A DNA stretch of 64,000 nt from the NCBI RefSeq assembly GCF_023330685.1, contig NZ_CP097128.1, positions 124,001 to 188,000 of the forward strand, written 5' to 3'. The DNA comes from Conexibacter sp. DBS9H8 (GTDB lineage Bacteria; Actinomycetota; Thermoleophilia; Solirubrobacterales; Solirubrobacteraceae). The position numbers and the translations under genes are program-made. Positions 7,994 through 11,412 of this stretch are shown here, piece by piece. Below the pieces are notes generated by a model. That model was not told where the DNA came from. It worked only from the letters and a program-made list of their open reading frames with translations, and searched no databases. Position 1 is the stretch's first letter; the number at the start of each line of letters is the position of its first letter.

Positions 7994-8161
7994 TCAGGCG
8001 CGGAGCCCGTGATACAGCGCCGCGGTGACTTCTCCACCCAGTTGGGTCCAGTCAACACCGGGCGGTCCTGCTTTCGTTCGGCGGCGAGGATCTCGCCCGA
8101 GGGCATCGACCGAGCCCTCCTCCGCGCGGACAGCACGAGCGGACGCCTTTTTGTCTGCCAT
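7994..8161 (-). CDS. Possible small ORF (55 aa), unknown
   Basis: A minus-strand ATG frame encodes a Lys/Arg-rich N-terminus (MADKKASARAVRAEEG) and ends WTQLGGEVTAALYHGLRA. It is divergent from the second toxin-antitoxin pair and convergent with the cupin. No family is recognised and there is no convincing ribosome binding site, so it may be spurious or the remnant of a small DNA-binding protein. Confidence 0.25.
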   Translation of the reverse strand: MADKKASARAVRAEEGSVDALGRDPRRRTKAGPPGVDWTQLGGEVTAALYHGLRA

Positions 8162-8170
8162 AATTGCTGA

Positions 8171-8449
8171 GTGGAGATCAGATGGGCTCGATCCGCGACC
8201 AAGCACCGCATCAGCCGCACACGAAGCGAGTACGCGATCCGGAACGCCATCGCCGTGATCGACCAGCCTGCGCCGGACGACAGCCCGCACCGAGATGTTC
8301 GCGTCGTGTTCCTTGGCCCAGATGCCGACGGGAGGATGCTTGAGGTCATGGCCGTCGAGACCGCCGAGGGGTTCTTGGTGATCCACGCGATGCTGATCCG
8401 ACGCAAGTACCTCGACTACCTAGAAGGAGCCAGCGATGAGCAAGCGTGA
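8171..8449 (+). CDS. Small toxin-like protein paired with an RHH antitoxin
   Basis: This 92-residue protein starts at GTG and reads EIRWARSATKHRISR, then a strand-rich core (DVRVVFLGPDADGRMLEVMAVETAEGF, in part) ending LVIHAMLIRRKYLDYL. The layout (basic N-terminal helix with a His, then strands ending in H-A-M) is shared with small actinobacterial proteins encoded before ribbon-helix-helix genes and often described as BrnT/DUF4258-like toxins. That family link is by pattern only. The reading frame overlaps the antitoxin gene by 14 bases, indicating translational coupling. Confidence 0.55.
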   Translation: MEIRWARSATKHRISRTRSEYAIRNAIAVIDQPAPDDSPHRDVRVVFLGPDADGRMLEVMAVETAEGFLVIHAMLIRRKYLDYLEGASDEQA

Positions 8450-8714
8450 GCCCGACCGCGTGATCGCGGTCAGCAAGCACGGGACGAAGTTCACCGAGAA
8501 GATCGCGGATGAATTCGCTGCCGAAGCCGAGCACGGCTATGACCTGTCGCTCGGGCGGCGACGCGGTCGGCCTTCGCTCAACGAGGGTGTCTCGCCGAGG
8601 GTGACCTTCAGGATGAGCGCTGAGCTTCAGGAGCGAGCTCGGCGTCGCGCCGAACGCGAGGGCAAGACGCTGAGCGAACTCGCACGCGACGCGCTCGCCC
8701 AGTACGTGGAATAG
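8436..8714 (+). CDS. Ribbon-helix-helix (CopG-like) antitoxin
   Basis: This 92-residue protein has a C-terminal ribbon-helix-helix at about 48-92: PRVTFRMSAELQERARRR forms the strand and first helix, and EREGKTLSELARDALAQYV the second helix. The N-terminal half (KFTEKIADEFAAEAEHGY) is probably the toxin-binding arm. It starts inside the 3' end of the upstream toxin-like gene after a GAAGGAG ribosome-binding sequence. Probably the antitoxin and autorepressor of the pair. Confidence 0.75.
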   Translation: MSKREPDRVIAVSKHGTKFTEKIADEFAAEAEHGYDLSLGRRRGRPSLNEGVSPRVTFRMSAELQERARRRAEREGKTLSELARDALAQYVE

Positions 8715-9070
8715 CTCGCTCAGCGAGACCCGCATTCGCGACCGCTGAAGTATCTGACGTCGTATGCCGAGAGACGTGCTTGGCGCGGAAAGCTCGCATC
8801 TCGGACGAGCGCTTTTGCCCGCGGGCCGGCGTGGAGTGCGCCACTGCTCATAGGACAAGCTGTGGTTGCCTCGACCGTTGCCGGGAGAGGGCCACGATTG
8901 CTTGCCCTGGTCAGAGGGCCCGTCAAAGACCAGCCCGTCCCGACGGTGGTGAGGTGCCGCGAGCGGCAACAGGACGTAGCCCCAAACGTGAGGGCCTTGT
9001 CTATGAGCACCCGCAACGGTACCTCCGGGTCGAGGCGCTGTGAAGGCGACTCGACGATGGAGGATGAGAG
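8715..9070 (+). ncRNA. Non-coding leader of the IS110 element, candidate bridge RNA region
   Basis: These 356 bases between the RHH gene and the IS110 transposase hold no convincing gene. IS110-family elements encode a bridge/seek RNA in the non-coding end next to the recombinase. Here that end would be upstream of the transposase, as in the IS621 group. Two hairpins suit a structured RNA: CTGGTC/GACCAG at 8907-8912/8928-8933 (15-base loop) and TGCCG/CGGCA at 8955-8959/8964-8968 closed by CGAG. The exact RNA ends and guide loops are not determined. This is inference from family architecture. Confidence 0.4.
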
Positions 9071-10384
9071 ATGGGATGTCGGTATGCCGGGATCGACTGG
9101 GCGACGCAGACACACGACGTGCTCGTTGCTGATGAGACGGGCGAGGAGCTGCTCAGCGCGACCTACGCGCACGATGAGAAGGGTCTGACCTCGCTGTGCA
9201 GGACGTTGGTCCGGATGGACGTCGAGCTGGTCGCGATCGAGCGGTCGGACGGGCTGCTGGTCGAGCGGCTGCTCGACGCCGGTCTGCAAGTGTTGGCGTT
9301 GCATCCGAACAAGGTCGCGGCCGCGCGGGACCGGTTTCGGGTCTCGGGCGGGAAGTCCGATCGGTTCGACGCGTTCGTGCTGTGCGAGCTTGCTCGCACC
9401 GATCATCACCGCTTCCGGGTGCTTGAGCCGGACTCTGATCAGACGAAGGCGATCAGGGCGATGACCCGGGCGCGCGAGGATCTCGTCGCGGCTCGGACCG
9501 GGGTGATGAATCAGTTGCGCTCAGAGCTGGACCGGTTCTGGCCCGGACCGCTTCAGCTGTTCTCGCACATGGACGCCGAGATCTTGCTCGCGTTCCTTGA
9601 GCGCTACCCCAGCCACGAGGACACCCGCGGTCTCGGGGTCGCGCGGATGCAGGCGTTCTTGGTGCGCGAGCGGTACTCCGGCGGGCAGCGCCCGACCGCG
9701 CTGATGGCCAAGCTTCGCTCAGCCCCGCGCGTTCGGATCGGTGAGCTTGAGCTCGCCGCCCGCCGCCAGCTGGTGCTCAGCTACGTGAGTATGATCAGGA
9801 CGCTCAACGCGCAGATCAAGCAGCTTGAGTCAGAGATCCGCAGCCAGCTCCGAGCACATCCAGACGGGCGCGTGTTCCTCTCGCTGTTCAAATCACCCAA
9901 CAGCGTGATCACGGCAGCGGAGCTGCTGGCAGAGATCGGCGACTGCCGCGAGCGCTACCCGACCCGTGACGCGCTCGCATGCGACGCCGGCCAAGCCGCG
10001 GTCGCCATGGAGTCGGGCAAATGGAGAGGCGCCGGATTCCGCCGCGCGTGCAACAAGCGGCTGCGCGTCGCGTTCTGCCGGCTGGCTGACAGCAGCCGAC
10101 ACTGGCATCCCTGGGCCCAGGACCTCTACGCCCAGGCCCGACAACGCGGCCATGATCACCCGCGCGCGATCCGGACCGTCGGCCGCGCCTGGTGCCGAGT
10201 GCTCTGGCAATGCTGGCGCAACCACACCCCCTATGACCCGACCAAGCACCGCGCGCTCCAAAGACACATCACCGTCACCATCCCCGGACCATCAGGCTCA
10301 CGCGTCGACGTCGCGGCCACCCGCCTGCTCGCGGGACCCGGTCTCTGGCGACCAGACCTCACCACCGCCGCGACGCGCAGCTGA
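9071..10384 (+). mobile_element. IS110-family transposase
   Basis: This intact 437-residue IS110 recombinase has the N-terminal RuvC-like DEDD domain beginning YAGIDWATQTHDVLVAD (first Asp at residue 8), with further acidic residues in VELVAIERSDG and the SDRFDAFVLCELAR segment. A coiled-coil linker covers about 220-265. The C-terminal Tnp domain (about 270-350) contains LLAEIGDCRERYPTRDALACDAG and ESGKWRGAGFRRACNKRLR, where the serine nucleophile is expected. IS110 elements lack terminal inverted repeats and target duplications, so the ends cannot be read directly. It lies inside the tRNA-Asp island. Confidence 0.9.
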
Positions 10385-10581
10385 CACCGCCCTGCCCCTT
10401 CGAAAGAAACGAGGTTGACACAGGACGTCTTCGGCGACGATCGGATAGGTCCGGTCGGTCCGGCTCGCCGACACCCGGATCGGGCATCGCGAGTCTCGAG
10501 ATTGGCGAACAGCGGGTTCGTCGCCACGGTGCCGGTCGATCCCCGCATTCGTGTTGCCACGGGCATCGTGTTGAACTGTTG

Positions 10582-11037
10582 TCATTCAGAGGGCGCCGCC
10601 GCGCGGATCGCGTCAGCGAGCTCGTCAATGCGCGCGGCGTCACCGCGCGGCCCCTCCGGCCACTCGTCGACTCGTGTCCGCCAGTACTCGCGAGGCGTTC
10701 CCGGGTAGCGGGGGATTAGATGGAGATGGAGGTGCTCGACACCGTGGCCGATGATGGCCGCGTAGATGTGCTCGGCGCCCGTGGCACTCCGCAGCGCCGA
10801 GCTGGCCGAGGCCGCAAGGCGCCCCAGCGAGCTGGCTTCAGGAGGCGACAGGTCGCCGAGTTCGGCGATGTGCCGGCGGGGCTCGACCATTAAGTAGCCG
10901 AGGTACACCGATTCCCGCGGCCCCTGCGGCAGGACCAGGGGTAGATGCGAAACGAGACAGTGCTCGTCGGCGAGGAGCATCCCACCGGGCAGTTCTGCCA
11001 TCCGCCGGTGCTTCGAGCAGATGAAGCACTCTTCCAT
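10582..11037 (-). CDS. HIT-family nucleotide hydrolase/transferase
   Basis: This 151-residue protein has an N-terminal CFIC zinc-binding pair (MEECFICSKH) and the histidine triad near residues 98-110 in HGVEHLHLHLIPRYPG. HIT proteins hydrolyse dinucleoside polyphosphates or aminoacyl/phosphoramidate nucleotides. The ATG at 11037 places the start immediately before the CxxC as in relatives. The frame stays open upstream but reads as unrelated Arg-rich shadow. It is the last gene before the right island end. Confidence 0.85.
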   Translation of the reverse strand: MEECFICSKHRRMAELPGGMLLADEHCLVSHLPLVLPQGPRESVYLGYLMVEPRRHIAELGDLSPPEASSLGRLAASASSALRSATGAEHIYAAIIGHGVEHLHLHLIPRYPGTPREYWRTRVDEWPEGPRGDAARIDELADAIRAAAPSE

Positions 11038-11390
11038 TTGACGCAACACCGTAGCTCGGGCCAACCACACGCACCACAGCAATTGACGACGCCGACGATG
11101 TCGCGGCGAAGAACGTGAACCGACTGTAGGCGCGGACCACGTCTCCGAGGAGGCGTCACTGCTTGCGTTCCGCGCGGCCTGCCACCGGCGTCGACGGGCC
11201 CTCCTTTGCAGGGAAGGCGAGCATCCCGGCTGAGAACGATCGCGCCGGGGCCAGTGCAAGCCATCGTTTTCACCTGGCGATCGCTCCTGCCTCTGGAGAG
11301 ACGCTGGACTCACCACCGCTTCGGCGACGGGGCGCTCGTCGCTCCCAGCCCCGAGCGTCTGCCGATACGGGCGCCAGTCGGGTCCGCTTA
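11038..11390. other. Gene-free right end of the island
   Basis: I recognise no gene in either orientation between the HIT gene and the arm-like repeats. Frames are open but have the composition of shadow translations. Confidence 0.5.
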
Positions 11391-11412
11391 GTACCCGCGA
11401 GTGGTACCCACG
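11391..11412 (+). repeat. Degenerate copy of the GTACCCGCG doublet
   Basis: GTACCCGCG (11391-11399) and GGTACCCACG (11403-11412) mirror the perfect doublet at 2733-2754, in the same orientation, 55 bp inside the right att copy. Candidate integrase arm site. Confidence 0.4.

Follow-up and report, generated by a model that had tools for sequence, protein, structure and literature searches.

The window, a stretch of 64,000 nucleotides from Conexibacter sp. DBS9H8, contains a gene for an IS110 recombinase with a non-coding leader on its 5′ side and a short non-coding segment on its 3′ side. The features are listed below, all on the forward strand. The target guides (LTG, RTG), donor guides (LDG, RDG), target flanks (LT, RT) and donor sequences (LD, RD) are named left and right as in IS621, and R1 is the covariance model built in this work.

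8840-8848, +, left target flank GCCACTG followed by the core CT; lies on the host side of the left boundary, set against the LTG
8847-10430, +, IS110-group element in full, from left core to right core, about 1,584 bases; both boundaries from 24 relatives
8847-8848, +, core dinucleotide CT, left copy
8847-8853, +, right donor RD (CTCATAG), exact complement of the RDG and varying with it among relatives
8849-9070, +, left end, non-coding, 222 nt
8854-8861, +, sub-terminal inverted repeat, left arm GACAAGCT; 6/8 against the right arm; holds the -10-like CAAGCT (8856-8861)
8866-9037, +, conserved region of the bridge RNA (R1, 152 bits)
8869-8876, +, enclosing stem, 5′ strand CCTCGACC; pairs with 9028-9035 in the MFE fold; compensatory changes in 6/8 pairs
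8894-8902, +, left target guide LTG ACGATTGCT, first loop
8921-8928, +, right target guide RTG CGTCAAAG, first loop
8951-8959, +, donor-arm stem, 5′ strand GAGGTGCCG; pairs with CGGTACCTC at 9017-9025
8969-8977, +, left donor guide LDG ACAGGACGT, second loop; identical to the right-end top strand at 10420-10428
9001-9007, +, right donor guide RDG CTATGAG, second loop; complement of the left end at 8847-8853
9028-9035, +, enclosing stem, 3′ strand GGTCGAGG
9071-10384, +, IS110 recombinase, 437 aa, DEDD and Ser domains; ORF without internal stop
10385-10428, +, right end, 44 nt
10412-10419, +, sub-terminal inverted repeat, right arm AGGTTGAC
10415-10420, +, -35 box TTGACA of the predicted junction promoter
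10420-10428, +, left donor LD (ACAGGACGT)
10429-10430, +, core dinucleotide CT, right copy
10429-10436, +, core plus right target flank CTTCGGCG

Recombinase

The protein matched PF01548 (2.7e-33, over 1-155 of 155) and the C-terminal Tnp domain PF02371 (1.6e-11). It also gave a full-length match to NCBIfam NF033542, 'IS110 family RNA-guided transposase', at 174.8 bits against a curated cut-off of 140; this is a family of proteins only and is silent on RNA. Sequence identity with IS621 is low: a PDB search with the single sequence missed it, and only a profile of 14 homologues retrieved it (8wt6, 1.4e-18), together with ISCro4. The catalytic residues of IS621 have been described (PMC11208158), and D9, E57, D97 and D100 align with its DEDD residues and do not vary among the 14 homologues. 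S315 aligns with its serine, and S315-G316, which falls on the IS621 ESG motif, is likewise invariant. The proposal in a first-pass annotation that the transposase is full length, with the DEDD and Ser domains intact, was thus borne out.

Ends of the element

The ends were set by comparing 24 related elements, drawn from GTDB genomes and from genomes sharing the phylum, class, order or genus of the host; the RD formed part of the pattern by which left ends were found. The left termini carry GCTCATAGG or a variant in nearly all relatives, the right termini carry GGTTGACACAGGACGTCT in nearly all, and the flanking DNA diverges beyond. On the left side homology to relatives begins at 8812-8880, and in their alignment the conserved terminus begins at the CT core at 8847-8848. 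CT is the dinucleotide common to both edges and the element is therefore 8847-10430. An extent of 8715-10384 had been given to it earlier, reaching from immediately downstream of the preceding gene's stop codon to the recombinase stop codon; of this, 8715-8846 belongs to the host flank, and the element's right end is 46 bases beyond 10384. A non-coding leader is indeed present, as that annotation had it, with a length of 222 bases rather than 356. The left end is longer than the right (222 against 44 nt), and a longer non-coding region upstream of tnp has been reported for IS110 (PMC11187229). The target sequence of the element is GCCACTGCTTCGGCGA; the version that matches the guides exactly is ACGATTGCTTTGACG.

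It had also been proposed that the ends be defined from an empty site. Searches with the separate flanks covered 28 genomes of the genus, and searches with the joined flanks covered 232 of the order; neither gave an orthologous empty site, and the boundaries came from the relatives instead. Two sequences look like an empty site in a suggestive way only: L103, with 76% identity over 82 bases running uninterrupted through the junction GCCACTGCT-GCGGCGAC, and L104, with an uninterrupted 27/30 match to the joined flanks.

The element is present as one copy in the 3.64-Mb host genome. The same genome has six other IS110-type recombinase matches (L002-L007) of other lineages, at G000:C1 ~519-546 kb and 1.60-1.62 Mb, some of them shortened or with a stop. 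In the relative L011 the right end is tandemly duplicated (2047-2114), with TTGACACAGGACGTCTT occurring twice at a spacing of about 49 bases; another insertion may have left this duplication behind, or it may represent an alternative end.

Structure of the left-end RNA

When the left ends of the 24 elements were aligned, an enclosing stem, a target arm and a donor arm were obtained. Over its 40 pairs, 90.3% of cells are paired and compensatory double changes occur in 21; 83 cells hold double changes, compared with 29 after shuffling. The covariation score is 0.303 against 0.144 for shuffles and 0.053-0.093 for controls with slid partners; as structure and alignment were both made here, some lean towards the structure is expected, and the slid controls give the margin. 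The window sequence on its own adopts the same fold, with an MFE of -79.2 kcal/mol (shuffle mean -68.3, z -2.3); one of 200 shuffles folded as well.

This conserved structure is larger than, and different from, the two hairpins on which the bridge RNA was originally proposed, CTGGTC/GACCAG (8907-8933) and TGCCG/CGGCA (8955-8968). Both occur in the window, but relatives show no conservation of them: 58.4% of cells are paired there (58.0% in shuffles) and the covariation is 0.071 (0.075 in shuffles).

The suggested covariance search gave a positive result. R1 matched 5′ of the recombinase gene, at E<=0.0021, in relatives with ~30-46% protein identity, none of which are in the model (L025-L033, L039, L040, L042-L044, L046 and L075). 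Across the whole host genome R1 has one match, at the window element; a match in L006 (E 0.04, on the wrong side) was taken as chance. A search of 8000-11400 against Rfam returned nothing relevant, and the bridge RNA matched no Rfam family. An RNA on the 3′ side in relatives, named beforehand as the arrangement that would speak against the proposal, was also looked for: in the window and in all modelled relatives the RNA is 5′ of the gene.

Guides, donor ends and targets

In the IS621 scheme the LTG and LDG have the top-strand sequence and the RTG and RDG its complement, with the core in each (PMC11208160). All four segments of this scheme were found in the window RNA, the guides being read by hand from the alignment. 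The pairings of the LTG, RTG and RDG take in the core; in the window, the two bases after the LDG are AG rather than CT.

The guides of each relative were compared with its own sequences and with those of other elements. The mean LTG-LT match was 4.88/7 with own flanks and 3.16 with swapped ones, and the RTG-RT match was 4.92/6 against 2.80. For the donor guides the figures were 8.74/9 against 8.04 (LDG-LD) and 4.92/5 against 4.01 (RDG-RD), the last test being partly circular as the pattern for left ends included the RD. In each of the four tests, the observed mean lay above all of the 100,000 permutations (p ~1e-5). The loops therefore fit their own insertion flanks better than those of other elements, as had been suggested for checking. 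Because these flanks are host DNA, the LTG and RTG fits do not come from shared descent of the elements, unless insertion sites were inherited; past the guide region the flanks differ among relatives. In L055 the LTG equals its own flank at all 7 bases, and in L016, L057, L059 and L068 the RTG fits at 6/6.

Natural changes of the core (CT, CC, GT) are tracked by the guides. In L014 (112-1948), with core CC, the LTG (..TGCC), RTG (..GG) and RDG (CTATAGG) all follow it. In L024 (1290-2755), with core GT, the RTG GACGACAC is the exact complement of GTGTCGTC, giving 6/6 on the right, the RDG CAGTGAC fits exactly and tracks GT, and the LTG too follows the core.

The ends, the protein family and catalytic residues, the covarying RNA 5′ of the gene, and the matching of guides to ends and flanks across relatives were all observed here. 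Together they make it almost certain that 8847-10430 is a complete IS110-group insertion sequence whose 5′ left end encodes a two-armed bridge RNA. The earlier reading of the 5′ leader as an IS621-type bridge RNA is strongly supported by its covarying structure, the 5′ matches of the covariance model and the fit of the guides to their own flanks and ends.

For the window copy the fit to its own site is 4.5/7 on the left and 4.5/6 on the right. Of the 7 non-core bases of the LTG, two are mismatched and one forms a wobble; of 6 in the RTG, one is mismatched and one forms a wobble. When ranked among the CT sites of the window sequence without the element, the site falls in the top 0.3% (19 of 6,206). 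This imperfect match, along with the single copy in the genome, could mean that the bridge RNA is there by descent and that this copy is inactive or fading, its guides having drifted from the target. We regard this as a serious possibility, if a somewhat less than probable one: the ORF is intact over 437 codons, with its catalytic residues, the donor guides are exact to their own ends, the RNA scores 152 bits, and zero to two guide-target mismatches are common in natural IS110s (PMC11208160). The idea that the target is an abundant repeat was dropped, as CTGCTTCGGCGAC was not clearly enriched over a reversed control in the genus.

The leader could also be conserved for a function in cis, either translational control of the recombinase or DNA-binding sites of the end, and not as a trans-acting guide RNA. 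As such a function would have it, the leader immediately precedes the gene, and in close relatives its conservation reaches almost to the start codon. A cis-acting leader, however, has no reason to match host flanks that vary from element to element, as in the LTG and RTG tests, nor to covary with the core dinucleotide, as in L014 and L024, and we consider it very improbable.

Junction promoter and proposed mechanism

The bridge RNA reading carries a possible mode of action with it, in which transcription, circle formation, strand exchange and present activity are all carried over from the IS621 model. On excision, the two ends would be joined at the CT core to give a circle. The junction so formed (RE-LE) would build a promoter, consisting of the right-end TTGACA, 17 nt and the left-end -10-like hexamer, from which the RNA would be transcribed. 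In the complex of recombinase and RNA, one loop would pair with the circle junction (the donor) and the other with a CT site in the host (the target), and the complex would then exchange strands between the two.

The same promoter arrangement across the RE-LE junction is described for IS621. In the present group TTGACA occurs in 16 of 17 complete elements, and at the RE-LE junction it stands 17 nt before nAnnnT in 16/16, the window hexamer CAAGCT being weak. These bases overlap the sub-terminal inverted repeat that most relatives carry (AGGTTGAC/GTCAACCT), the arms of which are perfect over 8 bp in L016, L061, L063 and L073. As the promoter bases also form the repeat, there are two possible reasons for their conservation. 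The relative L076, in which the repeat is lost and GATGAT is kept, favours the promoter.

Comparison with known systems

IS621 (PMC11208160, PMC11208158) shares with the window element a recombinase with DEDD RuvC and Ser Tnp domains, a left-end RNA with two internal loops, the order LTG, RTG, LDG, RDG and strand sense of the guides, the CT core and, as predicted here, the promoter across the RE-LE junction. It differs in having 326 aa, where the window protein has 437 and carries additional sequence between its domains, and in having a sub-terminal inverted repeat of 2-3 bp, where the window clade has up to 8 bp (a secondary, non-defining trait). In the window RNA a stem encloses both arms and the model made here is without a 5′ stem-loop, and the LDG pairs up to the core and not through it. 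The longer protein, the longer inverted repeat and the core outside the LDG are differences from IS621 at the level of the clade.

The Streptomyces IS110 and the long actinobacterial IS110-group elements, for which the likeness is drawn from the literature, are of the same family and have the RNA on the same side. In the closest annotated plasmid copies the protein is <=45% identical.

Elements of the IS1111 group and seekRNA elements (PMC11187229) also combine a DEDD recombinase with an element-encoded guide RNA and have repeats of comparable length; in IS1111 the RNA is 3′ of the gene and the right end is long. It is extremely improbable that the element belongs to the IS1111 group, with its long sub-terminal inverted repeats: those of the relatives, at up to 8 bp, are within the IS1111 range of 7-17 bp (the window has 6/8), but the RNA 5′ of the gene rules out membership, and the left end is 222 nt to the 44 nt of the right.

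The Conexibacter sp. DBS9H8 element therefore adds one more bridge-RNA element to the IS110 group, whose RNA-guided recombination was described only recently, and is no new kind of system. The support is strong and the novelty low, since NCBI already labels the protein family RNA-guided and bridge RNAs have been predicted in most IS110s (PMC11208160); in a family mostly bearing bridge RNAs, it is biologically an expected member. What is gained is evidence, drawn solely from natural variation, that the IS621 pairing rules apply to a distant actinobacterial clade, and a collection of 24 elements with their matched guides and flanks and their natural changes of core; collections of this kind help in selecting programmable recombinases that use other cores and in testing them.

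Introns in relatives and the neighbouring repeat

Group II introns were found inside the 3′ half of the bridge-RNA gene in L012/L100 (1-1885), L013/L099 (330-2311) and L018 (1-527). Two types are represented (Rfam group-II-D1D4-6 and D1D4-4), with an Intron_gpII match in L018, and reverse transcriptase ORFs lie upstream in the intron-bearing relatives. In L012, L013 and L018 the 5′ half of the bridge RNA is beyond the contig. A bridge RNA interrupted in this way might need splicing. It is conceivable, though unlikely, that there is a Thermoleophilia-centred clade of long-recombinase IS110 elements that combines a 5′ bridge RNA with IS1111-like repeats, cores CT, CC or GT with loops that follow them, and group II introns in the RNA genes of three relatives, its guide possibly being dependent on splicing.

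A copy of an 80-90-base repeat, which has a conserved box GCCGAGANRCNNGCTTNGCGCGG, makes up the left flank at 8717-8802 and directly follows a small gene pair at 8171-8714 that is toxin-antitoxin-like, with weak matches to DUF4258 and ribbon-helix-helix. The pair has a 77% DNA relative in G409, the similarity stopping at the stop codon. Insertion of IS110 beside this repeat as a rule was considered and rejected, the window copy being the only clear case. In other genomes of the genus the repeat forms same-strand arrays (L149, L150, L151, L153-L155). L151 (G642:C27:18000-36000) has about 14 candidate copies in 13.5 kb, at least 10 of them at E<0.001, spaced 0.45-2.5 kb apart. The repeats adjoin the ends of MazF/RHH, PIN/MazE-like, Fic/RHH and GNAT/TacA pairs and of other genes, and the arrays look like an integron-like array of toxin-antitoxin cassettes with an unfamiliar site.
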